DNA of 38,707 bases. It comes from a virus. Below, in pieces: positions 16,514 to 36,326 of the stretch. The stretch spans positions 1-38,707 of the IMG/VR virus record IMGVR_UViG_3300035698_034554. One strand, written 5' to 3'. Below the pieces are notes generated by a model, which saw nothing but the letters and a program-made list of their open reading frames with translations, ran no database searches and had not been told where the DNA came from. A program made the translations under genes and the position numbers. Numbering within the stretch: position 1 is the stretch's first letter; each line of letters opens with the position of its first letter.

Positions 16514-19500
16514 TTATGAACTGTTATCCATAGCATCTAATAAAGCCTCTAAATCAGCAGAACTCTTTGTCTGTGCTATTTTCATAAGAGTAATCATTTG
16601 ACTCAAAAACGAATTAGACCGATCAGACATATCTACTTTAAGAGTGATCTCCTTTTTAGAAACTGTTCCAGATCCGCCTCCAGTTGTAGCATCCAACATT
16701 GCCCCAACTCCATGTTGTCCAGGAGTAAATCCTTGTGCTGCTCCGCCCGCTGCTTGACCTGTTAATTTAGACAAAACAGAAGCGACTCCGCCCATTAAAC
16801 CACCTCTCATTTGCGAATCTAAATTAGCTAATGATGGAGATACAAAAGGAACATTAAAAGCAGAACCCTTCCTTTCTCCTGGTGCTCCGGTATACTTGCT
16901 CCATTTTTGTCCTACTTGATATCCACCCAAACCAGCCTTACCAACTGTCCAAGCTGCCATACTCCCTAATTGAGATTGGGCGGCTGAAACACCCTCTGTT
17001 TGAGAAACCATAATTTTTGTAAATGTTCCTGCACCAGTATTCATTGCAGAAAGAGCAGAAATCCAACCATCCCTAAGAGCCTTAACCATATTAGCTTGTT
17101 GTACTTGTTTACCTAAAATTTCACCTTCTATCTCTCTTTGTTTAGCACGAATATTAATAAGTTTTTCTCCTGTTCCTCTAAGTCTTTCTTGTAATTGCCA
17201 TTCATCACGCAATATATTTATTTCTTTGCTTATAGCATTAACTGCTGCTCCACGAAGATTCGCAGAAGCTCCAACACCCATTGCATAACTATCGGCTAGT
17301 TGTACTAATTGATTAGCTATACCAACATTAGCTCTAGCTAAACGCAATTGTTGAGAATATGCTTGTGTTGTACCTTCTACAAGCTGACCAATATTCTTCT
17401 CTTTATCTAAAATTTCTTTTTTAAAATCATACGTTCTTTTCTGAAGTTCTTCTATAGATAAAGCTTTCTTATATTTATCACCAAGTGCATCTTTTTCTTC
17501 TTTACTTAATCCAGCCGTTACTGACTCAAAAGTTGCCTCTGGAGTCATCAAGGTTAAAAATTTCTTTCTTGCACTAATTTCTCTATTCCACAAATTTACT
17601 TGTTCTTTTACACCAGCAACAATTTTATCTTGATCAACTTCACCAAGATAACTCTGCTGTGTAATCATTGAATTTAAATAACCGAGTTGTGCTTGGCGAT
17701 GTCGAGTTATAAATTCTACTTTTTTCTCTTCTTTATCAATAATTAGTAATTGTTTATCCAACCTATCTCCCATTTTCTGTAATTCTAAATTACCTTCTTT
17801 AAAAAGATTAACACCCTCTTTCTGTAAAACAACAACTGCCTTATGAGCCTCCATAAGCTTATCATATCCTGCACTTGTAGGATCTGACTGGTATTTACCT
17901 AATGATGCTTCTTTTTCTTTAGCTCTTTTTAAAGCAATTTCATGCATTTTAGCTGGATCAAATTTTCCCTCTGATTTAATATCTTTTATAACCCAAGCAG
18001 GAAGATTTCTTCTGGCATCTGCTAAACGAACATTTTCAGGTATAGCTGGACCAGTAGAAGGATGTTCACCTTCACCCTCACCTTTATCCTTACCACCTTC
18101 AACTAATGTTTGTATATCTCCAATAATATTTCTAAACTCCATAACTCCACCAGCCAAACCCCCAATAACTCCACCAACCGCTGTACCTATACCTGGAAAT
18201 ACCAGAGAACCAATCATAGCTCCAGTGCCAGCCAAAGCAGCAATCGATCCAGCAGAACCAACTAAGCCAGCACCAGCACCACTTCTATGATGCCCGCTTT
18301 GTACAAGTGCTTGTTTAGTCACTTTCCCACCAATAGCCAACAAAGTTCCGGCGCCAGCTAATGGACCTCCAAATCTCAACGCACCCAAACCTCCAACAGA
18401 AGCAGACCCACCAGCAACAACACTAGCCACAGCGGCTCGTTTAGCAGCAGCAACACCCAATAAAGCACCCGCGCCCTTCACAACACCAGGAATAGCCAAA
18501 AGCTTTGTACCCAACCACAAAGTACCAATAGTATATAATATCTTCTTTAAACTATCTAATTTACTCAACAACCCAGTTACTACTTCTCCAAAATGGGAAG
18601 CTCCAGTTTCTAACCAACTGAAAAATTTATTAACATCTTCTCTATGTTCTTCAAGCCATTTAGTAAAAGCTCTTATAACTGGCATCAAAGATTCAGCAAA
18701 TTTGATTTTTAGATTTTCTACATGCCTGCCAAACTCTTGAAAAGTTTGCATATTTTGTCTTGTTCTGGCATCAAGATCTGAACCCAAAGTAAGATCCATT
18801 AATCTCTTATAATCTGCTGTACTGGTTATTAGTCCAGCCATCTTCATCTGTTGTATTTCTAAAGCCATCGTCCTACGATCTTCGACTGTTTTTAACCTCG
18901 TTATTCGTTCTTCTAAATCTGGCAACATTTGAGTATATTTTTGAATTAAACTCATCATATCGCCAATAGCTTGTTCATTAGGACCAACTAACTTCTCAAT
19001 ACCTGCTATAGTCCCAGCAAAATCTGGTAAGGAAAAACTTCTAAATCCTTTTTCATATTGTTGCATTAATTTATTAGTTGCTTGCAACGTAAGGCGGGTA
19101 GAACGACTAACACCTTCAAGGGTTCCCTTAAGACCCTTCATATTCATTCCATACTTCGTTACCATAGACGAAGTAACAGAAAGTGTTTTATTATAATCTT
19201 CTAAATATTTAAGAGATGATCGTATACCTGCCAAACCCAAAAAACCCAAACCAATTTTTGCTACTTTTACAGCAGCACCAGCTAAAAGATTATATCCTTT
19301 AATAACTTTTTGAATTGTTTCTTTCTGTTTATTTAATGATTTTTCAGCAGCTTGCCCTTGACCTTTAAATGCAGCTATAGACATATTAACTGTTTTAAAC
19401 AGTTGTTTATTATTTTTTACTAATTTAGGGTATGCTTTAACTAGATCATCAAAATGTTTTCTAACAGCAGCTATTTCAGCAGCAGTTGCTTTAGCCCCTG

Positions 19501-19552
19501 TTGTTTTTAGAGCTATATCAATAGCTGTATGAGGATTAGTTGTTTTAGCCAC
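16514..19552 (-). CDS. Tail tape measure protein
   Basis: 1012 aa, starting with GTG (AGGG 8 bases upstream). The layout is typical of tape measures: charged helical N-terminus, a hydrophobic Ala/Gly patch at residues 83-112, helical region to about 330, a long Gly/Ala/Val-rich hydrophobic block at 335-472 (for example VFPGIGTAVGGVIGGLAGG), then long Lys/Glu/Gln-rich helices. It sits downstream of the tail tube and chaperone genes, the standard place. Tape measures set tail length and leave the tail during DNA ejection. By the rule of about 0.15 nm per residue, the tail would be near 150 nm. No peptidase or lysozyme motif was seen. Confidence 0.93.
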   Translation of the reverse strand: MAKTTNPHTAIDIALKTTGAKATAAEIAAVRKHFDDLVKAYPKLVKNNKQLFKTVNMSIAAFKGQGQAAEKSLNKQKETIQKVIKGYNLLAGAAVKVAKIGLGFLGLAGIRSSLKYLEDYNKTLSVTSSMVTKYGMNMKGLKGTLEGVSRSTRLTLQATNKLMQQYEKGFRSFSLPDFAGTIAGIEKLVGPNEQAIGDMMSLIQKYTQMLPDLEERITRLKTVEDRRTMALEIQQMKMAGLITSTADYKRLMDLTLGSDLDARTRQNMQTFQEFGRHVENLKIKFAESLMPVIRAFTKWLEEHREDVNKFFSWLETGASHFGEVVTGLLSKLDSLKKILYTIGTLWLGTKLLAIPGVVKGAGALLGVAAAKRAAVASVVAGGSASVGGLGALRFGGPLAGAGTLLAIGGKVTKQALVQSGHHRSGAGAGLVGSAGSIAALAGTGAMIGSLVFPGIGTAVGGVIGGLAGGVMEFRNIIGDIQTLVEGGKDKGEGEGEHPSTGPAIPENVRLADARRNLPAWVIKDIKSEGKFDPAKMHEIALKRAKEKEASLGKYQSDPTSAGYDKLMEAHKAVVVLQKEGVNLFKEGNLELQKMGDRLDKQLLIIDKEEKKVEFITRHRQAQLGYLNSMITQQSYLGEVDQDKIVAGVKEQVNLWNREISARKKFLTLMTPEATFESVTAGLSKEEKDALGDKYKKALSIEELQKRTYDFKKEILDKEKNIGQLVEGTTQAYSQQLRLARANVGIANQLVQLADSYAMGVGASANLRGAAVNAISKEINILRDEWQLQERLRGTGEKLINIRAKQREIEGEILGKQVQQANMVKALRDGWISALSAMNTGAGTFTKIMVSQTEGVSAAQSQLGSMAAWTVGKAGLGGYQVGQKWSKYTGAPGERKGSAFNVPFVSPSLANLDSQMRGGLMGGVASVLSKLTGQAAGGAAQGFTPGQHGVGAMLDATTGGGSGTVSKKEITLKVDMSDRSNSFLSQMITLMKIAQTKSSADLEALLDAMDNSS

Positions 19553-19623: not shown

Positions 19624-20034
19624 TTATATTCCACCAAGTGCCTCTTCTAATTGTAAACCAATAGCATTTCCTAAAATCGGATTTAATGCTTTAATATTTT
19701 CTTCTGTAATAGGTATTTCTTTATTTTCAGAATCTATAAAAGACCATCTTTTTGCTAGAATAATAAACCTAGCTAAACGAATTGCCCAAGGATTAAAATC
19801 GATACTAACACCATCTGTATTAAATGTATTTTCATTAATTTTAACATAATCTCCAAAAGTAGGTCTTTTAAATACAACTTCATGACTTTCTATAGTTTCT
19901 TTTAATAATTTTTCTCCAACATTTAAATCTAAATCTTTAACATTTTCACCGGCGACAATTGCACCATTAGTTGTTTTAGCAATTTCTACTTTAATTAGTA
20001 TTTCATCTTCAACTGTAACAAATAAATCTTTCAT
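19624..20034 (-). CDS. 136-aa tail assembly chaperone-like protein
   Basis: The ATG at 20034 has AGGAG about 9 bases upstream. The acidic protein lies between the frameshifting chaperone gene and the tape measure. Its C-terminal half (residues about 90-134: RFIILAKRWSFIDS, KEIPITEENIKAL, then LGNAIGLQLEEAL) lines up with the C-terminal part of the upstream 151-aa protein (RIKSLMTDWDLTR, KEPVSAEAIDALP), sharing the pattern R..L...W, then KE-P-(T/S)-E-x-I-x-AL. A second chaperone or a duplicated chaperone domain that binds the tape measure is the likely role. This rests on position and pattern. Confidence 0.75.
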   Translation of the reverse strand: MKDLFVTVEDEILIKVEIAKTTNGAIVAGENVKDLDLNVGEKLLKETIESHEVVFKRPTFGDYVKINENTFNTDGVSIDFNPWAIRLARFIILAKRWSFIDSENKEIPITEENIKALNPILGNAIGLQLEEALGGI

Positions 20035-20050: not shown

Positions 20051-20703
20051 TTATTTCAATTGATTAGCATTATTAATTTTAATAGCTACATTTAACATTT
20101 CTGTCATCATATCATGATCTGTATTACCCAAATCTCGAATATATTCTAAAGACCATCCAAATTCACGAGCCATAAGAAACTCTTCAACATAATGATTAAT
20201 GGGCAGTTCCGCGTTTCTACCTTGTAATATATCAGAAACCGCCCTAATTATTTTTCCCTTTCTTCACTCCCAACCTGTGTTGCAGTTTCATATCTATCAG
20301 ATAAACCTAACACTATTTCTGCTGGTAATGCGTCAATAGCTTCAGCCGAGACAGGTTCTTTCTGTCCTCCTCTAGTCAAATCCCAATCTGTCATAAGAGA
20401 TTTTATTCTTAAATCCCTATATTTATTCCAATCTACTTCTGGCAAGCCACTCATAGTATTCTCTCTCATACACTGAGCTAAAATATTATTTTGTACTTTC
20501 CAACTTACTTGTTTCCATTTTGTATTTAAAACTTTTACTTTTTCTTTTGTTTCTTCATCTTCCATCTTTTCTTTTGCTTTTTCATCTTCAAGAATAATAA
20601 TTCTTTTAATACCATATTTCTTATCTGGATTAATTTCAAAATATATTGGAATATTTATAACATCATCACTACTAGGTAACAAGATATCTCCCACATCAGC
20701 CAT
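20051..20703 (-). CDS. Tail assembly chaperone, -1 frameshift fusion product
   Basis: The 151-aa zero-frame protein (20703 to 20248) can be extended by a -1 shift near its stop. Beyond the TAA, the -1 frame is open for 66 more codons (ATA ATT AGG GCG ...) to TAA at 20051, with a protein-like sequence (RNAELPINHYVEEFLMAREF, then GWSLEYIRDLGN) and no ribosome site or start codon of its own near the junction. The frames overlap only from a -1 TGA to the zero-frame TAA, across AAAGGGAAAAATAA. This mirrors lambda G/GT and most siphovirus chaperones: the short form is abundant and the long form recruits tube subunits to the tape measure. The fusion would be about 217 aa. Confidence 0.75.
20247..20261 (-). 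promoter_or_regulatory. Putative -1 ribosomal frameshift site
   Basis: The coding strand reads AGG GAA AAA TAA in frame. Slipping back one base lets tRNA-Lys on AAA re-pair with AAA and continue into ATA ATT AGG. It is not a perfect X-XXY-YYZ heptamer, since GAA would shift to GGA, so it looks like an A-AAA slip helped by the stop codon waiting in the A site. Location at the tail chaperone makes a functional site likely. Confidence 0.6.
20248..20703 (-). CDS. Tail assembly chaperone, short form
   Basis: 151 aa. The ATG at 20703 is preceded by AGGAG with a 6-base spacer; the TTG at 20709 overlaps that region and is rejected. The product begins MADVGDILLPSSDDVINIP, has a Lys/Glu-rich middle, and ends DWNKYRDLRIKSLMTDWDLT, EPVSAEAIDALPAEIVLGLS, then EEREK. 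The W-x-L plus pro-x-x-E-aliphatic pattern near the C-terminus and the location just after the tail tube fit gpG-type chaperones. The protein would act in the cytoplasm during tail assembly and be absent from the finished virion. About 115 bases separate it from the tail tube gene. Confidence 0.8.
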   Translation of the reverse strand: MADVGDILLPSSDDVINIPIYFEINPDKKYGIKRIIILEDEKAKEKMEDEETKEKVKVLNTKWKQVSWKVQNNILAQCMRENTMSGLPEVDWNKYRDLRIKSLMTDWDLTRGGQKEPVSAEAIDALPAEIVLGLSDRYETATQVGSEEREK

Positions 20704-20817
20704 AACCAACTCCTAATTTAAAAAGGAATAACACTAGAATAGATATCGACAAAAACTACTAACCCACAAGACAGTTAATGCCAAAATTTTAATATTAATA
20801 TAAAGATTTAAACAATA

Positions 20818-21777
20818 TTAAGAAGCTGTAGTTAAGTATGCAGACCCCTCAAGATCGTTATCATCTGGCAATACATGCCAATTAACAGTTGTCTCAAAAA
20901 TATCATTTGACAACTGCATTTCTTCAATCTCAAATATTGTATTTGGATAAGTAACTAAAAATGTACTATTACATTCTGTTCTTGATAATTGATATCCAAA
21001 ATTGATTTGAGATACTTCATAACATCTATCTTGATTTGTATAAGCCTGCTCAGCCAATTGGGGGTGTCTTCCTAATAATACGATACTGCCATCAATATCT
21101 CTCTTACGAGCAGCAATATCTTGTGGAGCTAAAAGTCCATTAAAAGTATAAAAACGTTCAGCATCATTATTAACTGTTGCTTCAAAAGTTCTAACATACT
21201 CGCTTGAAACAGTTACAGCACCGGTAATCCCAACTGTAACATCATTCCATGTAACAATTCTTGCATTAATAGGGAAACCAGACGAAGAAGTTGTTAATGG
21301 AGTATTAGCAGCTTGTTCACGATCTCTACCTAATAAACCAACATTAATAGTAACTATACCGGATTGCTCAGCCTTAAAACTCCATGTATTTACTATACAT
21401 TGATTATATTTAAAATTAGCAAATTGAGTTGTATACATTACTTCTGTATCAAATATATAAGTAGATTTTAATCTACCTGCTCTGGCTCCAATACCAACAT
21501 CTCTACCTATTGCAGCCCGATAAAGCTGTGCAGTAGGATCGGTTCGACCTGATCTTTCCATGATCGCCGGATATTCAACTGACCCTTCTACAATTTGTGG
21601 TCCCAACTGATAAACTGTCTTATCAAACCTGCCATCAATTACATCAGGTTTGGTGATATCTTGAGAGAGCCTTAAATCAGCACTTGTGGCTCTAATGATT
21701 ACATCATTAACTGATGGGAACTTAAAACGAACGTAGCCCATAAATCCCATATATGCGGGAGGTGTTCCAAATGCCAT
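20818..21777 (-). CDS. Major tail tube protein
   Basis: 319 aa, ATG with GGAG upstream. The sequence is beta-rich with features of siphovirus/myovirus-type tube subunits: a mid-protein VEGSVEYPAI segment, FDTEVMYTTQFANFKYNQC, and TFEATVNNDAERFYTFNG followed by APQDI. It lies between the terminator-like region and the chaperone/tape measure genes, the invariant place of the tube gene. Hundreds of copies would stack around the tape measure. No separate Ig-like C-terminal domain was seen. A sheath gene is not present beside it, which argues for a non-contractile tail. Confidence 0.82.
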   Translation of the reverse strand: MAFGTPPAYMGFMGYVRFKFPSVNDVIIRATSADLRLSQDITKPDVIDGRFDKTVYQLGPQIVEGSVEYPAIMERSGRTDPTAQLYRAAIGRDVGIGARAGRLKSTYIFDTEVMYTTQFANFKYNQCIVNTWSFKAEQSGIVTINVGLLGRDREQAANTPLTTSSSGFPINARIVTWNDVTVGITGAVTVSSEYVRTFEATVNNDAERFYTFNGLLAPQDIAARKRDIDGSIVLLGRHPQLAEQAYTNQDRCYEVSQINFGYQLSRTECNSTFLVTYPNTIFEIEEMQLSNDIFETTVNWHVLPDDNDLEGSAYLTTAS

Positions 21778-21808: not shown

Positions 21809-22177
21809 TTACTCTATATTACTTGCTGCTATAGAATATCCAGCATCATTAGACAAATCAGCCCAAGCTTGAGGAACCTGGATACCGTTGCCTGCCAAAT
21901 ATGCATCTATAGTCGTATAAGTAGTGTTTTTAAGTACGTGAGCATTTAATGCCCTAACTGCTGATAACTGTAAAACATCAGATATTAACACATCAGTATT
22001 TACCAAATATGAATCCCAAAACACATTTAAAAGATCCACTTCAGGAGTTATAGCATTCAACATAACTATTTCATAAACAGCATCAAATAAAAATTCTTTT
22101 GCTCCGACAACTTGATCACGTGCATTACCATAAAAGGTCGCAATGTCTAAATAATCAGCGGCTGAGATAACCGACAT
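21809..22177 (-). CDS. 122-aa conserved-type structural protein, function unknown
   Basis: ATG with AGGAGAT eight bases upstream. The short acidic protein (MSVISAADYLDIATFYGNAR, ending YSIAASNIE) is predicted mostly helical and has no Cys, signal peptide or membrane span. It sits 31 bases upstream of the tail tube gene, so a tail or neck assembly part is plausible. I did not recognise a family. Confidence 0.78.
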   Translation of the reverse strand: MSVISAADYLDIATFYGNARDQVVGAKEFLFDAVYEIVMLNAITPEVDLLNVFWDSYLVNTDVLISDVLQLSAVRALNAHVLKNTTYTTIDAYLAGNGIQVPQAWADLSNDAGYSIAASNIE

Positions 22178-22242: not shown

Positions 22243-23439
22243 CTATCCTTCTTTTCCATTGACAATATCAACAAACAATGTTTTGTCTTTACTCTTCATA
22301 ATACGTTTTACTACTTCTTCAATCCTCTTTGTAAAAACCAAAGAAGAAAAATTACTTATCACATTAATACATTTCTTGCTTATTTTGTTAAAATCCTCTT
22401 TATCTTCCTTCCAAATTCTATAAAAATATAATATCTTTTTTACCAAATCAAAAGGATCACATATTTTACTTCCATTTCCATCTTCATCTAACCATTCTAC
22501 ACAATTAATTATATGTTTTTTTGGATCATCCAATAACTTAACAATAGTTCCCATAGCACCAGATCCTGTTGTAATAGGCACACAACCGCATTTCATAGCT
22601 TCTAATAAAGAAATAGATGTTATTGACTTAGTAGATGTATCAACAAACACAGTAGATTCAAGATATTTCTTTTTTAACTGTGTATCTGTTATCCCTTCTT
22701 TTATTGATATAAAATTATCAGGTAATTTAACATTAAAAGCATTAAAATAATTTATAGAAGATTTTATATCATAAAAACCATCATCATATATATTTGTATG
22801 CAAATAAATATCTATATCCGGCAACAGAGATGCAGATTTAATAAAAGCATTAATATTAGATGATTTTTTATTACGCAAAAGAGCCATAACAGTAAATTTT
22901 TTCCTATTTTTAAAACTAGTTTTAAATACAGGATCAGGACCAAACGGGATATACGAACAATTAAAAGATGTTTTCAATAAATTATATCCATCTTCAGACG
23001 TAGTGATAACAGCATCAGCAGATTCAAAATAATCTAAAATATTTTTATTAATAGGGTTATATCCAGATAGAAGTATAGATAACCACCGAAAAGAATCAGG
23101 GTATCTCATTTTCAACATATGAATAAAATTTGTATTAACATAATCACCAATGGATATAATTAAATCAGGATTATCTTTCAAAATAATTTGTTTAGTTTTT
23201 TCGCACATTTTATCAGGAGAGACAGAATCTGATAAATGTAATTTACATAAAGTTCTCCCGTTCTCTTCATATAAATAATTATGAGTAAACTCATTAGTCA
23301 TAAAATAATTTCTATCATGATTCCAAACCAAAGATGATACAACATGTCCTTGATTAACAAAATATTTAATAATAGAAGAATTAATTCTAGATTGACTTGT
23401 AAACAAATACGGGCTTTCACCAATAGTCAGTATTTTCAA
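22243..23439 (-). CDS. Glycosyltransferase, GT-B fold, group 1-like
   Basis: 398 aa, starting with TTG at 23439; GAGG overlaps the stop of the preceding gene 6-7 bases upstream. The N-terminus MKILTIGESPYLFTSQSRIN is the first Rossmann half, with PDLIISIGDY and ADAVITTSEDGYNLL typical of GT-B. The C-terminal half has KFTVMALLRNKKSSNINAFI (about 181-200) and ISLLEAMKCGCVPITTGSGA (275-294). In the EX7E motif E280 is kept while the upstream Glu is Ser272, so it is a degenerate version. Lys- and Ile-rich, AT-biased codons differ somewhat from its tail-gene neighbours and suggest later acquisition. It interrupts the terminator-to-tube gene order. The stop is TAG. Confidence 0.85.
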   Translation of the reverse strand: MKILTIGESPYLFTSQSRINSSIIKYFVNQGHVVSSLVWNHDRNYFMTNEFTHNYLYEENGRTLCKLHLSDSVSPDKMCEKTKQIILKDNPDLIISIGDYVNTNFIHMLKMRYPDSFRWLSILLSGYNPINKNILDYFESADAVITTSEDGYNLLKTSFNCSYIPFGPDPVFKTSFKNRKKFTVMALLRNKKSSNINAFIKSASLLPDIDIYLHTNIYDDGFYDIKSSINYFNAFNVKLPDNFISIKEGITDTQLKKKYLESTVFVDTSTKSITSISLLEAMKCGCVPITTGSGAMGTIVKLLDDPKKHIINCVEWLDEDGNGSKICDPFDLVKKILYFYRIWKEDKEDFNKISKKCINVISNFSSLVFTKRIEEVVKRIMKSKDKTLFVDIVNGKEG

Positions 23440-23443
23440 AGTT

Positions 23444-24382
23444 TTACCTCAGATGTGTTTCTGTGTTCCTGAAATTTCGAGGCTCTTCTTCTTCAGCGAA
23501 CCACCTTATAACAGCACTTTGTAAAAGCATTCCACTTTTAGATGATTTACCTAAATCAGTTGTATGTGGCCATGTATTAAAAATAAACCTATGAGGAGCA
23601 ATAATAACCGCATTATCCGCAATATTAAAACTAGAACAAGCCATAGGGCTAATCGTAACGGTTGTTTCATCAATTATCTCTTGAACTCTTGTTTCCTCAC
23701 TTTTCCATTTATCTTCTAAAATAGCCCTTGCATCACTTTCTCTTGGATAATCAGATGTAGTATCTGTAAGCGGAGTATTAAAAACACTAGAATCAGTTAC
23801 CTTAATAAACTCATCACCACCTGCTACATTGGCTGTTAAAGAAGTTAAATCATAATCATTAACAAGAGGATAAAAATTACGTTTTAAACCTTCTCTGATT
23901 GTTTTTGCCATTCTAAGTATAAAACGATAACCATCTTCATATGTAGATTGTTCTACAAATATACCTAATTCTATTTCATATCTTTCTTTTGTACTATCTA
24001 AAGTCATCCATTCAGAATCTACAGTTGTACCATTAATAACAATAGCTGGATATCTTGGAATAACATCAGGATCACCAATGTATATTCCTTCTATAAACAT
24101 ACCATTAATTAATTTACGCAAAGTAGGGCTTTCACCAACACCCCAATTATTAGCAACAGGTGTTGCAAGAGAAATATGAGTATCATCAACAATTGTATCT
24201 ACAACTAAATTAGGTTCTCCTTCTAGTGGTCCTTCAATCATAACTGAATCACCAGTAAGAAAACGAGATGTCGTATTAACTGTTAAAAGAGTATCTCCAG
24301 CACTAACAGATGCAGTTATAGGAGTAACGGTTTCTACCCATCTACCAACAATTCTCCTCAATGCATCTAAAATATCTTCCAA
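23444..24382 (-). CDS. Tail terminator/completion-like protein
   Basis: 312 aa, starting with TTG at 24382 (AGGA 7 bases upstream, inside the end of the previous gene). The central part (RYPAIVING, RYEIELGIFVEQ, GYRFILRMAKTIREGLKR; residues 110-168) resembles tail terminator/completion proteins that cap the tube at the neck. Two flanking segments are related to each other: residues 22-88 (ITASVSAGDTLLTVN ... TGDSVMIEG ... THISLATPV) and 181-264 (LTANVAGGDEFIKVT ... TTVTISPMA ... NAVIIAP). They look like inserted small beta domains. Position between the connector and the tube gene supports a neck role. Family call is inference. Confidence 0.78.
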   Translation of the reverse strand: MEDILDALRRIVGRWVETVTPITASVSAGDTLLTVNTTSRFLTGDSVMIEGPLEGEPNLVVDTIVDDTHISLATPVANNWGVGESPTLRKLINGMFIEGIYIGDPDVIPRYPAIVINGTTVDSEWMTLDSTKERYEIELGIFVEQSTYEDGYRFILRMAKTIREGLKRNFYPLVNDYDLTSLTANVAGGDEFIKVTDSSVFNTPLTDTTSDYPRESDARAILEDKWKSEETRVQEIIDETTVTISPMACSSFNIADNAVIIAPHRFIFNTWPHTTDLGKSSKSGMLLQSAVIRWFAEEEEPRNFRNTETHLR

Positions 24383-24385
24383 TTT

Positions 24386-24676
24386 TTATCCTATTATATC
24401 TTTTAAAAATATATCTTGAATAATATGAGCACGTATCTTATTCATCATTTCATCATCTAAATCTGCTGGGTTTATATCTTTACCATCCATCATATCAGTA
24501 TATATTTCATAAGACTCAGCTTCTTCACTTGTATCACTCAAATGTATTCCTGTTCTTTGATTTCTATGTAATCCTTTAGATGGACCTATCCTCTCACCAT
24601 CCTTAATAATTATTTCATTATTTTCAGAATCAAGTCTTTGCAAATTTTTTATTATTTTATCAAAAATACTATCCAT
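24386..24676 (-). CDS. 96-aa acidic protein of the neck region
   Basis: ATG at 24676, two bases after the connector gene stop; no strong ribosome site, so translation is probably coupled. The product (MDSIFDKIIKNLQRLDSENN, later DDEMMNKIRAHIIQDIF) is acidic and helical. It lies between the head-tail connector and the terminator-like gene, where small neck or head-closure genes are usual. Not recognised beyond that. Confidence 0.72.
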   Translation of the reverse strand: MDSIFDKIIKNLQRLDSENNEIIIKDGERIGPSKGLHRNQRTGIHLSDTSEEAESYEIYTDMMDGKDINPADLDDEMMNKIRAHIIQDIFLKDIIG

Positions 24677-24678
24677 AA

Positions 24679-25401
24679 TTAAGCTATCTTATCTATATCT
24701 TTTGAAGAACCAGAAGATGGTCCATTTGGCAAGCCATATTGATCGTTAATAGTAGGATCATAAAGTCTACGCCCGATACGATGGATACCATGCAAAATAG
24801 CTCTTCCATTTAATATATCGTTTAATTTTTGTCTTGCTTGTTCTCTTAAAAGATTACCATAATTAGTATTTTCTGGCGATACCTGTGCAGCAAGATATTT
24901 CTCATATATATTAGCAGCACTAAGTCTAGCACATATCCAAGGCAACGGATCAGGATATTTAACTCTTATTAACCTAGAACCATCTGGAAAAGCGAATTGT
25001 ATTGGATCTACAGTACTAAAGATATTTTCAGCAACAACTGTATCAATAACATGTCTTTCTTCATAATTACCATAAAGCAGAATAATATTATCACCAGGAG
25101 TAAGAGGACATGCTTTCTCTATAACTATATAACTATTATACTCTGTAATATCAGCATAAGTAGTTGTTTCAAAATCAGCCAATTCACAAGCTGGCATTTT
25201 ATATAATTCACTAAGAGTAGCATCAATTTCAGTGCCACCCCATAATATATATTGATTAACAACATCATCAGAAATAACATTCTTATCTCTAACAGAACCT
25301 ATTTCTAATAGATTTCTCCTAGCTTGAGATTGAGCGTTAGTAGCACTAGTTAAAGATTGAGCCAAAACATTTTCAACTTCCGTTATTGAACAATAACCCA
25401 T
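24679..25401 (-). CDS. Head-tail connector-like protein (DUF1320/gp36-like)
   Basis: 240 aa, ATG at 25401. The N-terminus MGYCSITEVENVLAQSLTSA, then SDDVVNQYILWGGTEIDATL and LSELYKMP, matches the layout of DUF1320 (Mu gp36-like) and gp6-type connector proteins: a YxSxxEv start, a helix with E-I-D, then a YxxP element. Later residues LPWICARLSAANIYEKYLAA continue the helical bundle. An insertion around residues 80-145 (ITEYNSYIVIEKA ... NIILLYGNYEE) is beta-rich. Such proteins form the ring under the portal. The portal itself is not seen upstream. Confidence 0.72.
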   Translation of the reverse strand: MGYCSITEVENVLAQSLTSATNAQSQARRNLLEIGSVRDKNVISDDVVNQYILWGGTEIDATLSELYKMPACELADFETTTYADITEYNSYIVIEKACPLTPGDNIILLYGNYEERHVIDTVVAENIFSTVDPIQFAFPDGSRLIRVKYPDPLPWICARLSAANIYEKYLAAQVSPENTNYGNLLREQARQKLNDILNGRAILHGIHRIGRRLYDPTINDQYGLPNGPSSGSSKDIDKIA

Positions 25402-25405
25402 TTAT

Positions 25406-26482
25406 TTACCCCAATGCTGACTCTATAGAGTCCGGATCTCCTTTTAACATCTTTCTTTGTGTTGCTATAGCTTGTGTTAAACAACCCCTTACAACAGATT
25501 CTCTAGGATTTTTTGCATGCCGAACACCTTTTATTTCAAACGGCAAATCGAGTCCTCTTATAACTTCACTTATTTTATTACAAAATCCTTGAGGGACAGA
25601 AGTTCCTCCTGCTACAACAATTTCTAATGGAGCTTCAAATTGACTTTTTACCTCATTAAATTTAATACTAAATTTAGAAAATACAAATTTTATCATTTCA
25701 CTATAATATGCATCTAAAGCAAAAATAATATCATCATCATAATCTATATTATTAAAATCAAGTTCTAATTCTTTTTTTCTTGTTACCTGTCCTATAGGCT
25801 CACCAGTGGCATCAGATACCTTCTTATCAATATAATCACCACCCCTAGCCACACTCATCCCTACAATGGATAGTCCCTTATATGCTAACACACAGTTCGT
25901 TCGCCCAGCTCCACAACTTAATCCAAAACCGCTATATGGTGATTCAGAACCATCAGGTTCCTGCATTACAGGTCTCTCAGCTAAAATAACAGCAAGTCCC
26001 TCTTCAATAATCTTTACATTCCATTTAAGGTTTTTAAACATACCCATTAATCTGGCTTTATGAAAAGCATTATCAACTGAACCATCAACAGATTCTGAAG
26101 ATACACAAGCACATACAACAGAATTTTTACTTGGAGATTCTCCAATAGATGTTTCTAATAACTTAGCAAGAACCAACATCTTCTTTGCTTCGTTTTTATT
26201 AAGAACACCATCTTGAAGTGGTCTTCTTAACTCAACCTTGCCTGGAAACATATTTGCAACTCTTAAGCTGTCTTCACCAATAATATAATATTTATTCCCA
26301 TCTTGTATATATTGCCAGTCGTTCCTTTCCAATATTTCATCTACATCTTCTGAAGCATCTAACTCAACAAAAGCATTTCTTGTAGTTTTTACTTTAAAAG
26401 AATTTTCATCTTCATCTAGTTCGGCTACTTGAAAAAACATTGTACCCATATCTACGCCATAAATTTTATCTTCTTTATCCAT
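25406..26482 (-). CDS. Actin/Hsp70-superfamily ATPase (MreB/ParM-like)
   Basis: 358 aa, ATG with GGGAG upstream. Superfamily motifs appear in order: phosphate-1 GVDMGTMFFQVAEL (9-22), a connect segment NVKIIEEGLAVILAE (155-169), phosphate-2 GLSCGAGRTNCVLAYKG (187-203), GGDYIDKKV (214-222, like GGD-x-hD in MreB/DnaK) and adenosine motif EIVVAGGTSVPQGF (287-300). In phosphate-2 the usual Asp of D-x-G-x-G-T is Ser, so hydrolysis may be slow or altered. Length suits a bare actin-like core. It lies between a 673-aa unknown protein and the head-tail connector in one operon, unlike segregation-type actin genes, which sit with a DNA-binding partner and centromere. A scaffold, filament or regulatory role in assembly is speculation. 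Confidence 0.85.
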   Translation of the reverse strand: MDKEDKIYGVDMGTMFFQVAELDEDENSFKVKTTRNAFVELDASEDVDEILERNDWQYIQDGNKYYIIGEDSLRVANMFPGKVELRRPLQDGVLNKNEAKKMLVLAKLLETSIGESPSKNSVVCACVSSESVDGSVDNAFHKARLMGMFKNLKWNVKIIEEGLAVILAERPVMQEPDGSESPYSGFGLSCGAGRTNCVLAYKGLSIVGMSVARGGDYIDKKVSDATGEPIGQVTRKKELELDFNNIDYDDDIIFALDAYYSEMIKFVFSKFSIKFNEVKSQFEAPLEIVVAGGTSVPQGFCNKISEVIRGLDLPFEIKGVRHAKNPRESVVRGCLTQAIATQRKMLKGDPDSIESALG

Positions 26483-26545: not shown

Positions 26546-28567
26546 TCAAAATTGAGTAAATAGATAAGATTCTCTATTTGTGATATTAGCTATAATATTA
26601 TCTATATGCGTTGTAGATGCGTTTATAGACTTTAATTTCTTGCGTAACCTAAAAGCATCAGATAATAATGCCTCTAATCTATTACATTCGGAATAAACAA
26701 GAAATCTTTTGTCATTTATACCATTAGAATTGTTTACACTCGCTGTCCTGGATATATCACCTTCCTCAGCAGATTGTCCTCTTAATTTATCTAAGAAATC
26801 TACAGATAATTTCTTACCACCATTTAATTTATTTAAAACAGACTCACCCCAACCAGCCCCTTCTCTCAAATATTTATGTTTTGTAATTAAACTTAAAATA
26901 ACTTCTGTAGGATCTATACCCATTTCTTGATATCTTTTGACAATACTTGGTTTATCTTCTGTCTCTTCTGTCATCAATTGGCGTATTTTAATTGCCGCTT
27001 GATGAGACAACTCTTGTTTAAGCTCACCAGGATATTGAGCCATTAACTCAAAATATTCTGGCAAATCAATATTCTTATAATATTTTCCACCAAATCTCTT
27101 TTTAGGATAAACACCAAAAGCATCAATTTGATCAAAAATCTGCTGTACTTTTACAGGATCTAGTCCTGTTCTTTGAGATATAACATCAGGTGATAACCCT
27201 TGGTTTTTGAGATCAGAAACCGCTCTTTTTTCTGAAGCCATCTCTTCTAAATAAGGTCTTAAAAAAGATGTTCCAACATCAACAACAAAATCACCTGGTT
27301 TGTCCTCCGTAGGCATAGCAAACCCAAGTTTAGACCCAGATGGTCCTTTCCATAAAAGACCTGAATTATTTATTTTATCTAATTTTTGTCGCAATCTTGA
27401 AGTTTTCTGATCAAATTCATTTTCATCAATAAGTCCACTATTGAACTTACTTTCAAGTCGATGCATAGATTTTAATATTTTTTGTGATTCTGACTCATTA
27501 GCCTGGTAATTCTCAGCAGTAACAATTGTTTGAGCTTGATCATTTAATGCCTTAAAATATGCATCTAACATGTCTGGAGTTTTTAAAGAAACCCTAATAC
27601 GATCATTAATAGGATTCCCACCACGAATATAATCAGCAATTTCACTCCATTTTTCTCTACCAAGAGATACAACATCTCCCATAAAAGGATTAACCATATT
27701 TAATACATTACCAAATATTTCATTAAATTGAGTTCCATATTGCTCTCTTTCTACATCTGTTTCTGACTGCAAACCCTGTACATCTGTCTTGCCAGAATCT
27801 GGTAATGTATCACCAAATTCTCCTGGATTATCTCCCCTACCAGGACTACTAAGTATTGGAGCTTCATGTTGTCTTTGTTTCTGCTCTTGTGTTCTTTGTG
27901 TTTTTACAAAACTCCATATTTGATATGACAAATAAGCTTGCAAATCTTCATTTCCACTTGCAGCCAAAATCATTAATTTAGTTAATAGACCATCTTCAGC
28001 CCCTGGTTGACTATCATTTAATATACTAGATAAAGAATCCATTATCCCGGATTTTTCTTGTGTTCTACCTTTAATAGCAGATAAAGATGAAAAATCGCCT
28101 TGTAAACCACCCAAAACCCCATTAACCCTATTCTTTAATGCACCATCGTTTAGATATTGAGGATATTTCATAAAGAAATTAATTCTTGAGTCTTGACTAC
28201 CAGCTTCTGGCTCACCAAAAACTCTCATAATAGAATCATTAAATGCTGTATAAACAAAATCTTCTTGATTTCTATATTGATTGAGTAAACTATTGATTGT
28301 TCTTTGTTGCCATTCCTGATTTTTTTCATTAGATAGAAAAGCACTGGCTATATCCATACCAGAAACGTTCTGTGTTGGAGCTATAACGGTCTGTGTGCCT
28401 TCCTCTCCAGTTAACCCCTCTGTAGTATCATCCATTTCTGTAAAGCCATAGGGGACATCCTCTTCTGGTGTATCAGTCTCATAAAAAGAATTTTCTTCAT
28501 CTTCATTATCAGATTTAATAGTTTTAAAAATGCCAGCTTTTTTAATAATTCTTTTAAGTATATTCAT
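26546..28567 (-). CDS. 673-aa protein sharing a domain with the 614-aa protein upstream
   Basis: The ATG at 28567 is preferred (GGGA 9 bases upstream); a TTG at 28582 has no ribosome site. The N-terminus is basic (MNILKRIIKKAGIFKTIK), then acidic and low-complexity to about residue 65. Residues about 109-227 match the 614-aa protein: RINFFMKYPQYLNDGA here against RFNFFTRYPEYLTDEA there, followed by an EDGL(L/I)xK helix and a similar C-terminal helix. Later comes LSPDVISQRTGLDPVKVQQI, which looks like a helix-turn-helix. No portal, protease or capsid signature was recognised, though the operon position would suit a head-associated protein. Function unknown. Confidence 0.8.
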   Translation of the reverse strand: MNILKRIIKKAGIFKTIKSDNEDEENSFYETDTPEEDVPYGFTEMDDTTEGLTGEEGTQTVIAPTQNVSGMDIASAFLSNEKNQEWQQRTINSLLNQYRNQEDFVYTAFNDSIMRVFGEPEAGSQDSRINFFMKYPQYLNDGALKNRVNGVLGGLQGDFSSLSAIKGRTQEKSGIMDSLSSILNDSQPGAEDGLLTKLMILAASGNEDLQAYLSYQIWSFVKTQRTQEQKQRQHEAPILSSPGRGDNPGEFGDTLPDSGKTDVQGLQSETDVEREQYGTQFNEIFGNVLNMVNPFMGDVVSLGREKWSEIADYIRGGNPINDRIRVSLKTPDMLDAYFKALNDQAQTIVTAENYQANESESQKILKSMHRLESKFNSGLIDENEFDQKTSRLRQKLDKINNSGLLWKGPSGSKLGFAMPTEDKPGDFVVDVGTSFLRPYLEEMASEKRAVSDLKNQGLSPDVISQRTGLDPVKVQQIFDQIDAFGVYPKKRFGGKYYKNIDLPEYFELMAQYPGELKQELSHQAAIKIRQLMTEETEDKPSIVKRYQEMGIDPTEVILSLITKHKYLREGAGWGESVLNKLNGGKKLSVDFLDKLRGQSAEEGDISRTASVNNSNGINDKRFLVYSECNRLEALLSDAFRLRKKLKSINASTTHIDNIIANITNRESYLFTQF

Positions 28568-28625
28568 AAATATTTTTCCCAATTTATAATAAAGAAATAC
28601 TGCTTATATTGTTTTTATCCTCTTA

Positions 28626-29189
28626 TTATATTAAACCTTCTAATTCATCGGCTCGTTGACCGATAGAATCTGTCATATTCTTTTCACTATAATTTATTTT
28701 ACTACTAACATCCTTAATTGCTTTTTTAACATGTTTAGCATGAATATCTGCTAATGTTGATTCATCTATATCATCTTCCTCAGAAATGTTTTTTATTGTT
28801 TCAGAAGTAATATTTTTTGAAACCACACCTTTTTCTAATAAAGAAGTTAATTGTTGAAGAACTGAAATTAACTCTTTATCTTGTTTGGGTGCTTCATTTT
28901 TGTTTGACATTTCATTTTTTATTTCTTCTCTTATAGTCTTTTTAATATCATCTATATGATCAGTTTTATTAGTAATATTAGTAATATTTTGAACATTTTT
29001 ATTTTGTTTTGCAGAATCTCTTCTAACCTGTATAATACCAGATTTAATAGCTTGTTTAAGATTAATAGAAGAATCAATATCTGATCTTTTTTTAATCTTT
29101 TCTAGATCTATGGCTTTTTTAGGTCCAAGAGCAAAGTTTAAATCAGATATAATAACTTCATGTTTTTTCGTATTTACTATAAAATACAT
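28626..29189 (-). CDS. 187-aa helical, Lys/Glu-rich protein
   Basis: ATG at 29189, two bases after the zinc-ribbon gene. The first 55 residues are compact (MYFIVNTKKHEVIISDLNFA, then GPKKAIDLEKIKKRS and LKQAIKSGIIQV), a short domain of the type 'L-x-x-G-x-x-iDLe'. The rest is charged and helical (DIKKTIREEIKNEMSNK, KELISVLQQLTSLLEKG), probably coiled coil. It looks like an assembly or scaffold-type protein. No family assigned. Confidence 0.78.
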   Translation of the reverse strand: MYFIVNTKKHEVIISDLNFALGPKKAIDLEKIKKRSDIDSSINLKQAIKSGIIQVRRDSAKQNKNVQNITNITNKTDHIDDIKKTIREEIKNEMSNKNEAPKQDKELISVLQQLTSLLEKGVVSKNITSETIKNISEEDDIDESTLADIHAKHVKKAIKDVSSKINYSEKNMTDSIGQRADELEGLI

Positions 29190-29191
29190 AG

Positions 29192-29389
29192 TTATAACCT
29201 ACCCGCTTTAATACGAGGTAAAGGCTTAGCTTCTTGTTTAAGTGTTATTTTGCTATCTTGCCCACATTTAGGACAAACAAAAACAACTTCAGATGTATAA
29301 AAATTAAACTCTAAGACAGGATCATCTGTGGAATGACGACATTTGGCATTACCACAAACCACGCGTATAGATGGTATATTAATATTCAC
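29192..29389 (-). CDS. 65-aa zinc-ribbon protein
   Basis: Starts with GTG at 29389; GAAGGG lies 6 bases upstream. The four cysteines CGNAKC (12-17) and CPKC (39-42) form a treble-clef/zinc-ribbon pattern, followed by a basic end (PLPRIKAGRL). A small metal-stabilised domain that binds protein or nucleic acid is likely. It is placed between two virion-cluster genes of unknown role. Confidence 0.75.
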   Translation of the reverse strand: MNINIPSIRVVCGNAKCRHSTDDPVLEFNFYTSEVVFVCPKCGQDSKITLKQEAKPLPRIKAGRL

Positions 29390-29429: not shown

Positions 29430-31274
29430 TCAACCTTTATGTCTTTTCCGTCTAGTGTTTATTCTCCACTCAACCCATTCTGAAACATGTGCAGGCATAT
29501 CTACTTCAACTATATTATAAATTGCACGAACATTTTCAGGTTTAGTTTTATTCCTAACATTATATTTGTTTTTCCCATTATTTGTAGGGTCTTTGATACC
29601 TCCATGAATACCAAATAAACTAAAAAAGTCCCTACGAGTACTAACAGGATACCGAGACATTATATCAGAAAGTCCAGCATCCAATAATTTAGACCACTGC
29701 CAACCAATAAAACTTTTTATTTTACCAACATCACATCCATCTATTTGTTTATAAAAAGATGCTAATTTTTTATCAGCTAAAGTAACATTAACAAATTCTA
29801 TAGTTACATCTAACTCTTGAGCAATTTGATTAACAGTAAAACCATCTCTATCATATTTACATATATTAGATTTAAGTTTACCAATATATCTTAATTCCTC
29901 AGCTAATATCTCATTATTAATCAATCTTCTAAAATCTCGCTCTCCATACAAATTCCCAGGCTTTAAATCACAATCTAATGGTCGAATAACAATTTTAGAC
30001 CGTTCTTTAATTAAAGACAATCTTCTTTCATCAGTAAGTTTTCTCAAAGCATTTAATTTTTTCGTAGAAATCAAGAAATCAAGTTCATCAAAAAGTTTTT
30101 CAACCTGAACAGTCGAAAGTGATAAAATTGATTCCATTAAATCAGCTAACGATATCCGCATACTCTTAAAACCAACATTGATAAAAGGATTACCAACTTG
30201 ATTACGAATAAGAGATATAACTTCAATACCAAGTTCCTGTAAAGATGAAACCTGATCTCTAGTATAGCCCTTTAAACATTCCGCTTGCTGACGACGACGT
30301 TCATAAGTTTCGTCTTGTTGAGCTATACGTAAAAACCGGACATTACCAGGAATAATATCAGCCAAAACCATATCTTTATCTATTTTAGCAAAAATATCTA
30401 CCGTACCTGGAATTTTACCAGCAGCAACTGCTTTATCCCTCATACATTTTGTTTGTGTTAAACCTTTAACTCGTTGATCCATATGGTAAGCAATATGATT
30501 AAAAATATGAGAACAATTATTATTAATTAATTCTCTAAATTTCGCAATCAAACCGTCTTCGTCTTGAGATAATAACGAGAGAAGTATAGGTTTGCTTTTT
30601 TTAGAAGAAATTGCTGTATCAAAATCAATCTTTCCTTCTAATCCACCAGAATCCACCCATAATTCACACTCTATATCATCTACAACATTATCCATATCTA
30701 CAAAGTTTTCATTAAGTATAGAAATAGCTTCATCAGTTAAATATTCAGGATATCTAGTAAAGAAATTAAATCTTTCATCCTGCAAACTAACTTTTTCTGG
30801 TTTAGTTAAAGACCTAAGTAAGCCATCCATAACAGCATTATGAACAAGCTGAGGATCAAGTGGTCCATATCTTCTTTGCAAAAGACCATTCATACCAGGA
30901 ATTAACTTAGGCTGTTTTTCTATAGCTACCTTAACAAATTCAAAATCAACAGGATCTTTTTCACTAATATCCTCTTGACCTTGTTCATCCCATGGTTTGT
31001 CTAAATCATAAACAAATTCACCAAAATGAGCAAAAACATTATTTTTCATCCAACGATCAGCTTCATACTCGCCCAAAATGGCTGTAGATAATTCACCAAA
31101 ATATCCCCTTAATAGAATGTCATTCCATTCACTGGGAAATGGTTGTTGTTCATCCTGATCAAAATTTTCTTCAATATACCGTACCATCTGCCAAGCTTGA
31201 TCTTCCGATATGCCTTCTAAGGGTTGAAGAGGTAAGGATTCAGAAATGTGATTAGATGTGTTTTGCTTCGTCAT
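29430..31274 (-). CDS. 614-aa protein with a domain duplicated in the 673-aa protein
   Basis: ATG with AAGGA 6 bases upstream. Residues about 145-275 are related to residues 109-227 of the 673-aa protein (VHNAVMDGLLRSLTKPEK, RFNFFTRYPEYLTDEA, DEDGLIAKFRELI). Near residue 475 the segment GFTVNQIAQELDVTIEFVNV reads as a helix-turn-helix, and the C-terminus is strongly basic (NTRRKRHKG). It follows phoH-like and precedes the zinc-ribbon gene. A DNA- or RNA-binding or packaging-associated role is possible, but no known family was recognised. Confidence 0.8.
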   Translation of the reverse strand: MTKQNTSNHISESLPLQPLEGISEDQAWQMVRYIEENFDQDEQQPFPSEWNDILLRGYFGELSTAILGEYEADRWMKNNVFAHFGEFVYDLDKPWDEQGQEDISEKDPVDFEFVKVAIEKQPKLIPGMNGLLQRRYGPLDPQLVHNAVMDGLLRSLTKPEKVSLQDERFNFFTRYPEYLTDEAISILNENFVDMDNVVDDIECELWVDSGGLEGKIDFDTAISSKKSKPILLSLLSQDEDGLIAKFRELINNNCSHIFNHIAYHMDQRVKGLTQTKCMRDKAVAAGKIPGTVDIFAKIDKDMVLADIIPGNVRFLRIAQQDETYERRRQQAECLKGYTRDQVSSLQELGIEVISLIRNQVGNPFINVGFKSMRISLADLMESILSLSTVQVEKLFDELDFLISTKKLNALRKLTDERRLSLIKERSKIVIRPLDCDLKPGNLYGERDFRRLINNEILAEELRYIGKLKSNICKYDRDGFTVNQIAQELDVTIEFVNVTLADKKLASFYKQIDGCDVGKIKSFIGWQWSKLLDAGLSDIMSRYPVSTRRDFFSLFGIHGGIKDPTNNGKNKYNVRNKTKPENVRAIYNIVEVDMPAHVSEWVEWRINTRRKRHKG

Positions 31275-31340: not shown

Positions 31341-32021
31341 TTACTCATCAGCCAAATACCTAGCATCTATGTCTCTCACTATATCACTTCTGACAATATC
31401 GATACTTTCCATCTCTGTAAACCCAATATTACCAACACCTTGCAGTCTTTCTACCGCATCAGATAATCCGTTTTGTCCCCTGATGTCGCTTTGCCCCAGG
31501 TCACCCGCCAAAACCATTTTACAGTTTTTTCCAATCCTTGTCAACACAAGCCTAACTTGTTGCGGGGAAGCGTTTTGCATTTCGTCAGCTACAACAAAAG
31601 CATCGTTAAATGTGACTCCTCGTTGAAACGCTAATGGCAAAGTATCGATAGTCCCTTCATCCATCATGCGATTCATATAGGTTTTATCTAGGTATTGACT
31701 TAAAATACCAAAAACAGGAATCATATATGGAGATATTTTGTGATAAAAATCGCCAGGAAGAAACCCAAGATTTTCACCATATGCTTCTACACATGGACGA
31801 GTAAACACTAACTTAGAACATTCCCCTTTAATTAAAGATTCCAAACCCAAACAAACAGATATATGTGTTTTACCTGTACCTGGAGGACCAGATACAAAAG
31901 TAATTACATTGTCTTTAATTGTTTTTATTAATAATTTTTGATTTTTACTCTTACCTGTTAAAATAAGTGTTTTTGATAAAATATTATTTAAACCTATCGA
32001 GGTACATTTTTTTTTATTCAT
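31341..32021 (-). CDS. phoH-like: PhoH-like P-loop ATPase
   Basis: 226 aa. Walker A GPPGTGKT at residues 45-52, VFTRPCVEA (72-80), Walker B VVADEMQNASP (143-153) and LAGDLGQSD (171-179), with IRGQNGLSDA after it, are the signature of PhoH/YlaK proteins. Length is typical for phage copies, which carry only the ATPase core. GAGGAG lies 12 bases upstream of the ATG, a long spacer. PhoH-like proteins are common in phages; a role in RNA metabolism with RNase or YbeY partners is proposed for cellular ones, but the phage role is not settled. The gene leads into the 614-aa gene. Confidence 0.93.
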   Translation of the reverse strand: MNKKKCTSIGLNNILSKTLILTGKSKNQKLLIKTIKDNVITFVSGPPGTGKTHISVCLGLESLIKGECSKLVFTRPCVEAYGENLGFLPGDFYHKISPYMIPVFGILSQYLDKTYMNRMMDEGTIDTLPLAFQRGVTFNDAFVVADEMQNASPQQVRLVLTRIGKNCKMVLAGDLGQSDIRGQNGLSDAVERLQGVGNIGFTEMESIDIVRSDIVRDIDARYLADE

Positions 32022-35597: not shown

Positions 35598-36326
35598 ATG
35601 AAGCCAAAAATATATAAAATTACAAATGATATTAATAAAAAAATCTATGTTGGTCAAACATGGAAATCAGTTAAGGAAAGATTTCAAAGGCATTGCCAAG
35701 AAGCTAGGTGGAAAAACACAAAAAAAATGCCTATCATAATGGCTATTAAAAAATATGGTGAAAAACATTTTAAAATTACAATATTAGAAGAATTGCCCTG
35801 CAATTGTCATCAACATCAAGTAGATAAAAAAGAAGTTTTCTGGTCCAAAAAGCTTAACTCTCTATGCCCTACCGGCTACAACTTAAAAGTGGGAGGAGCT
35901 TATGGGCTAATGGCTGAGTCAGTAAAAAAGAAAATCTCTATAGCTAATACAGGTAAAAAAGCTACAAAAGAAACTCGTGAAAAATTAAGAATTAGCCATT
36001 TGGGACACACACTTTCAGAATCAACTAAAAAAAAGCTATCTAAAATAAACAAAGGTAAAAAGTTATCAGAAGAACATAAACAAAAAATATCTAAATCTAA
36101 TTCTGGTAAAAAAATTAGTTACGTTTCTAAAGAAAAAATGAGAAAAAAGAAATTAAAATTTCAATATACCATACTATCTCCAAATAAAGAGTTGTTTACA
36201 ACGAACAACTTAGAATCTTTTTCTATAGAAAATAAACTAAACAGGGGACATATGTGGAGTGTTGCAAATGGTAAGTATAAACACTATAAACAATGGAGGG
36301 TATTAGAAAAAAACCCATTTTATTAA
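35598..36326 (+). CDS. GIY-YIG homing endonuclease with NUMOD3 repeats
   Basis: 242 aa on the strand opposite to its neighbours. The GIY-YIG domain is at residues 4-98: KIYKITNDINKKIYVGQTWK, catalytic-type Arg28 in KERFQRH, ILEEL (62-66), and PTGYNLKVGG (91-100). Four NUMOD3-type repeats follow (about 105-175: KKKISIANTGKKAT, EKLRISHLGHTLS, KKLSKINKGKKLS, QKISKSNSGKKIS). The C-terminus (LESFSIENKLNRGHMWSVAN) looks like the helix-turn-helix of I-TevI-type enzymes. It is free-standing, not in an intron, and very Lys-rich and AT-rich, consistent with a mobile gene. It would cut an intron-less or allele-lacking relative's DNA. Confidence 0.92.
   Translation: MKPKIYKITNDINKKIYVGQTWKSVKERFQRHCQEARWKNTKKMPIIMAIKKYGEKHFKITILEELPCNCHQHQVDKKEVFWSKKLNSLCPTGYNLKVGGAYGLMAESVKKKISIANTGKKATKETREKLRISHLGHTLSESTKKKLSKINKGKKLSEEHKQKISKSNSGKKISYVSKEKMRKKKLKFQYTILSPNKELFTTNNLESFSIENKLNRGHMWSVANGKYKHYKQWRVLEKNPFY

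Follow-up and report, generated by a model that had tools for sequence, protein, structure and literature searches.

The open reading frame at positions 25406-26482 of the window (one virus contig of 38,707 bases, analyzed as a whole) encodes, on the minus strand and from an ATG start, a 358-aa protein that is, by its sequence and its modelled structure, a Volactin-family actin of a huge tailed phage. Conserved volactins were found in single copy in at least three groups of huge phages and are tied to virion-assembly genes, which suggests a different, virion-serving kind of phage cytoskeleton. We put at about even the chance that the protein is a late, polymerizing phage actin coupled to neck and virion assembly and to virion placement, a function proposed by analogy and from gene context. 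Phage cytoskeletons are known mainly as the PhuZ tubulins of nucleus-forming jumbo phages and the ParM-like segregation actins of prophages, and none of the open-access papers searched, including a 2026 jumbo-phage review, a huge-phage survey, and another large survey, was found to report a phage actin of the volactin type.

Fold, family, and distribution

An earlier note on this DNA had placed the protein in the actin/Hsp70 superfamily at large, on the basis of five motifs in order. The motifs are present, and profile search, AlphaFold2, and Foldseek agree on the actin fold; the assignment can now be narrowed to a defined family, Volactin (PF25216), which was matched with 208 bits (cut-off, 35; E = 3.3e-61) by residues 8 to 338, aligned to positions 3 to 321 of the 321 in the profile. 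The structure prediction and comparison that the note had proposed were run, and from an input of 37 sequences AlphaFold2 predicted an actin fold (mean pLDDT, 93.1; pTM, 0.91) for which Mbl/MreB, MamK, BeeR, and actins were the top Foldseek matches in the PDB (E of about 1e-14 to 1e-11; TM, 0.57 to 0.72). Because of these scores and matches, we regard the fold as secure. Weak matches to MreB and MamK were also obtained when the PDB was searched with phmmer, and no family in PHROGs matched the protein.

Three groups of phage volactins were distinguished, each of which formed a clade in a maximum-likelihood tree: group a, the window type (26 IMG/VR loci with 53 to 70% identity, on contigs of up to 548 kb); group b, that of LR745208 (30 IMG/VR loci, the contigs reaching 529 kb); and group c, the largest, that of LR756511 (at least 108 loci on contigs to 533 kb, LR756511 itself being 595 kb). 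A single origin of all phage volactins was rejected (AU test, P = 0.019), as was a grouping of b with c (P = 0.003); a grouping of a with c, i.e., of the window type with LR756511, was not (P = 0.17). Exactly one volactin copy was present in all 14 long phage records. Tubulin (PF00091) was found in none of these 14, and phiKZ PhuZ was recovered as the positive control; the absence of tubulin is provisional, because for most of the records completeness of the genome is not established. Two contigs filed under an Actinomycetota and an uncultured-bacterium metagenome-assembled genome (MAG) (L138 and L148) were syntenic with the huge phage LR745208 and, judged by that synteny, are probably misbinned phage DNA. 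Apparent stop-codon recoding in these two contigs proved to be an artefact of an open-ended reading frame, there being no internal stops.

Cellular relatives, to which the window actin is about 25 to 36% identical, were found in Halobacteria, Archaeoglobaceae, Thermoplasmata, Planctomycetota, Omnitrophota, and Magnetococcales, and the family, known from archaeal cell shape, is thus widened to include bacteria and viruses. Several of the cellular loci have neighborhoods of their own. One volactin gene lies within a gas-vesicle cluster (L088, JAUYAT010000034.1, 971-14837) with GvpL/F, a GvpF-DnaJ fusion, CDC48, and an ArsA-like ATPase, together with FtsZ. Omnitrophota MAGs that are probably magnetotactic (L100, L101, L103, L106, and others) carry two neighboring volactin paralogues of about 330 and about 480 aa, which in L100 adjoin a ParA/MinD-like ATPase and a coiled-coil protein. 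The Magnetococcales gene (L151, 5455-11147) adjoins FtsH-like, SpoIIE-like, and AsmA-like genes, and the Archaeoglobaceae gene (L093, 7239-10119) lies 3 bp downstream of the gene for a DUF7139 protein and adjoins, on its other side, that for a PRS2-type AAA ATPase.

Nucleotide site

The residues of the predicted nucleotide site were placed as follows.

25406-26482, minus: Volactin-family actin, with D11, E161, S189-x-G-x-G-x-x-N196, G215-D216-x-I-D219, and A291-G-G-T294

In MreB the phosphate-2 motif carries Asp (D-x-G-x-G-T). The earlier note was right that this Asp is Ser in the window actin (S189), though the change is common to the whole Volactin family: when 132 members from viruses and cells were aligned together, the phosphate-2 position was Ser and the E161 position Glu in every sequence. 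Ser was also found in all of 24 archaeal Volactin loci, mostly from the family of a Haloquadratum MAG, and in each of another 50 phage loci, in which D11, G191, G193, N196, D216, and D219 were invariant as well. E161, the catalytic Glu, is kept in the window actin, as are D11, the first Asp, and both glycines. In a control search, the H. volcanii genome had a match over the cut-off, one of three matches passing it; the haloarchaeal Ser was counted on other members of the family. Since Ser is family-wide and the filaments of Haloferax volcanii volactin are dynamic in vivo (PMC10869688), Ser is no evidence of slowed or lost hydrolysis. The suggestion that it may slow hydrolysis in the window actin was accordingly dropped, and on the same family-wide count we rejected the reading of Ser as the mark of an ATPase that is dead or slow in this one gene. 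By its sequence, S-x-G-x-G-x-x-N at phosphate-2 is a hallmark of the Volactin family.

Three group b genes were interrupted by inteins, which, read by eye from the translations, were of two kinds: an HNH-like one in the phosphate-2 motif and a LAGLIDADG-like one in the GGDWID motif.

L250, 3998-6211: intein-interrupted phage volactin gene
L254, 4004-6088: intein-interrupted phage volactin gene
L255, 3965-6088: intein-interrupted phage volactin gene

Active-site inteins are typical of essential nucleotide-binding proteins, and their occurrence at two active-site motifs in group b is consistent with such a protein.

Gene neighborhood and the candidate partner

In the window, the actin lies in a cluster that reads, in order of transcription, from a PhoH-like ATPase to the tape measure protein.

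31341-32021, minus: PhoH-like ATPase (PF02562, E = 7.6e-63)
29430-31274, minus: 614-aa protein, in whose place relatives have a protein of 870 to 1002 aa (synteny)
29192-29389, minus: small zinc-ribbon-like protein of 65 aa, conserved in the cluster
28626-29189, minus: candidate actin partner of 187 aa, with an N-terminal domain, a linker with a predicted coiled coil, and a conserved C-terminal peptide
26546-28582, minus: 678-aa protein between partner and actin, a paralogue of the 614-aa protein (blastp, 22%, E = 2.6e-9)
25406-26482, minus: the actin
24679-25401, minus: 240-aa head-tail adaptor (connector) of the Mu gp36 type, 4 bp downstream of the actin (PF07030 in homologues, synteny)
24386-24676, minus: small protein of 96 aa between the adaptor and a tail-completion-like gene
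23444-24382, minus: conserved neck/tail protein of 312 aa with a weak match to a tail assembly protein (phrog_1082, E = 2e-4; synteny)
22243-23439, minus: glycosyltransferase-like protein within the tail module, kept in most relatives (PF00534, E = 1e-5)
21809-22177, minus: conserved tail-module protein of 122 aa (synteny)
20818-21777, minus: tail tube protein (PF18906, E = 6e-15)
20248-20709, minus: probable tail assembly chaperone 1 (phrog_9046, E = 1.2e-5; between tube and tape measure)
19624-20034, minus: probable tail assembly chaperone 2 (phrog_9046, E = 1e-3)
16514-19552, minus: tape measure protein (phrog_794 and phrog_1272, E of about 1e-5)

At the position of the 96-aa protein, two relatives (L002 and L003) have reading frames of similar size (105 and 88 aa, respectively), with no sequence match found. 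The 678-aa protein is missing between partner and actin in most relatives. It and its 614-aa paralogue both have, by eye, helix-turn-helix-like stretches, and relatives have one longer protein. Two endonuclease genes were also seen, a GIY-YIG homing endonuclease with NUMOD3 in the window (35598-36326, plus strand, opposite to the cluster) and an HNH endonuclease just upstream of the actin in L003.

That the actin lies immediately upstream of a head-tail connector, as the earlier note had stated, was borne out: the adaptor gene begins 4 bp past the actin stop, and seven of eight members of its family match PF07030 (best E = 4.9e-5), a Mu gp36 family annotated as a protein of the head-to-tail connector complex, the window copy itself giving no match. 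The AlphaFold2 model of the window adaptor was poor (pLDDT, 54), and the Foldseek matches to it were therefore set aside. The note had also proposed looking for the same gene beside connector genes in other phages, and the order of actin and adaptor was found in all eight relatives first examined. In the set of 26 loci, the adaptor starts -1 to 126 bp from the actin stop in 24; of the other two, one is at a contig end and one is broken, and on the contig of the former (L285) the adaptor lies about 2.6 kb further on. With the adaptor alone as query, ten loci were found, all with the actin upstream. The linkage to virion-assembly genes that had been noted for the window thus extends, with an adaptor downstream, to nearly all of the 26 loci. 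Neither shallow nor deeper profiles linked the neck proteins of the window directly to their counterparts in the other two groups, and no portal or terminase was found with two models in the 147- and 350-kb relatives of the window phage. In group c, the actin is flanked by glycosyltransferase-like and other proteins, with no recognized adaptor, and terminase and portal come after it within about 20 kb. Two glycosyltransferase-like genes, recognized by motif only, precede the group c actin in L004 (16472-17302 and 18745-19749), and the tail region of the window has glycosyltransferases also.

The actin is better conserved than its neighbors. Among window-type relatives, its identity was 58 to 70%, versus 44 to 51% for the adaptor, 37 to 45% for the 312-aa protein, 40 to 45% for the tail tube, and 44 to 53% for PhoH, and it also exceeded that of the tape measure. 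In group c, median actin identity over 82 loci was 63%, versus 31 to 50% for most neighbors and 49% for terminase. Conservation above that of terminase and PhoH is as expected for a filament subunit, the surfaces of which would be fixed by self-assembly. The same figures bear on a host-directed role, in which a late filament or an interfering actin would reshape the cell or block host MreB or volactin. Volactin controls the cell shape of Haloferax (PMC10869688), and some jumbo phages turn the host cell spheroidal (PMC13282480). However, one would not expect takeover genes to be fixed within a neck module and better conserved than it, and the identity to cellular relatives is low (the 25 to 36% given above); we consider this role quite improbable.

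Upstream of the actin, a member of the 187-aa protein family was found in 25 of the 26 loci, mostly adjacent to the actin gene and in several overlapping or touching it, the window being an exception in that one gene (678 aa) separates the two. In group b, 28 of the 30 loci have a protein of 181 to 262 aa in the same place or at a distance of one or two genes. The two families were related in hhalign over 54 N-terminal columns (probability, 95%; E = 4.6e-8), and in an early comparison with shallow profiles the group b protein had ranked first among the reading frames of L005, with a 150-fold lead over the second. In both families the linker varies and the C terminus is conserved, and the group b linker resembles coiled coils. 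From gene order and the shared domain, the 187-aa protein is likely the partner of the actin, and one partner family would then be common to two of the three groups. Most group c loci have, ahead of the actin, a 76-aa protein whose C-terminal W-A-I-P-D-F motif is conserved; this protein was not accepted as a similar partner, its similarity to the others being nonsignificant (E = 0.02 to 0.1). For the partner protein, nothing significant was found in the PDB or PHROGs, and no DNA-binding domain was recognized. When it was sought in phages without the actin, tblastn gave no match to it in 50,697 phage records, and a scan of IMG/VR, which reached close relatives only, found it in actin-bearing loci only.

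These findings bear on a ParM- or AlpC-like motor for DNA segregation, with the upstream protein as its DNA-binding adaptor. In AlpA-AlpC, too, the adaptor gene precedes that of the motor (PMC4446434). Against such a motor stand the lack of a recognizable DNA-binding domain in the partner, the position in a probably late virion cluster and not a replication region, membership in Volactin and not ParM/Alp, and the lack, at the locus, of any array of iterons or centromere-like repeats (none between 24000 and 30000; the window as a whole has short tandem repeats only), on which count a ParR/centromere module at the window actin was ruled out. We rate the segregation motor as very unlikely. The earlier statement that the gene has neither a DNA-binding partner nor centromere repeats holds locally, but it had missed the conserved candidate partner, which is not obviously DNA binding.

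Proposed function and comparison with known systems

In the reading that we favor, the actin would be made late, probably from the cluster that also encodes the neck and tail proteins, and would polymerize into ATP-driven filaments like Haloferax volactin. The 187-aa protein would act as an adaptor, with one end on the filament and the other on a virion part, and the filament would gather, move, or position capsids, necks, or tails while very large particles assemble. This suggests that huge phages build or position new particles with an actin of their own. That the protein acts in assembly or in placing virions, which the earlier note had raised, is retained as an idea supported by the linkage to virion genes, and gene neighborhood is no proof of it. 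A more specific proposal, that huge phages acquired volactins at least twice and that, with a dedicated adaptor, these organize virion assembly as a late cytoskeleton docked to the head-tail neck, is put forward tentatively, as somewhat short of even.

Some actin-fold proteins, such as Hsp70h and FGGY kinases, do not polymerize. The strongest rival to a filament is a virion-assembly ATPase like Hsp70h of closteroviruses, i.e., a nonpolymerizing assembly factor or virion component that, upon ATP binding, would fold or hold the adaptor or neck. Closterovirus HSP70h was among the fold neighbors of the window actin when viral models were searched with Foldseek, the actin has a fixed position between partner and head-tail adaptor, and Hsp70h is integral to the closterovirus virion and required for tail assembly (PMC3622897). 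However, the C-terminal substrate-binding domain of Hsp70 is absent from the 358-aa window actin, which in the AlphaFold2 model has only a short helix after the actin core; the nearest structures are the filament-forming MreB, MamK, and BeeR, not Hsp70; and the one Volactin member studied forms filaments (PMC10869688). Chaperone, filament, and structural component are not separable by sequence; we favor a filament over a chaperone because of these nearest folds, the studied member, the missing substrate-binding domain, and the high conservation, and consider the assembly factor unlikely.

Among known systems, closterovirus Hsp70h resembles the phage protein as an actin/Hsp70-fold ATPase tied to virion tail assembly and differs in being a member of the Hsp70 family, from an RNA plant virus, and part of the virion. 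MreB and MamK are the closest solved folds, and the window actin is set apart from them by a score of 26.6 with the MreB_Mbl profile (PF06723), below its cut-off of 27, and by Ser in place of the MreB Asp. AlpC-AlpA of Corynebacterium prophage CGP3 is likewise a phage-encoded actin with an upstream adaptor gene; AlpC, however, is of the ParM kind and transports phage DNA by way of AlpA on alpS sites, whereas the window actin belongs to another family, lacks repeats, and has a virion context.

PhuZ tubulin gives nucleus-forming jumbo phages capsid traffic. The likeness to the volactin phages would lie in a phage cytoskeleton for very large virions, made of tubulin in the former and of actin in the latter, in whose 14 long records PhuZ-type tubulin was not found. 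If the proposed function is true, volactin would be an actin-based counterpart of PhuZ-driven capsid traffic in phages without tubulin. Closest of all is Volactin (VolA, HVO_2015) of H. volcanii, of the same family by the full-length PF25216 match and with the same catalytic Glu and first Asp, the S-x-G-x-G-x-x-N phosphate-2 motif being common to haloarchaeal members and the phage actin. The phage gene differs in lying in a neck/tail cluster, in its identity of about 30%, in its own partner gene and downstream adaptor, and in that its filament is only predicted. We thus rate the PF25216 family as already known and, as new, a phage cytoskeletal-type protein from another actin family, in a virion-assembly context and with a partner of its own.
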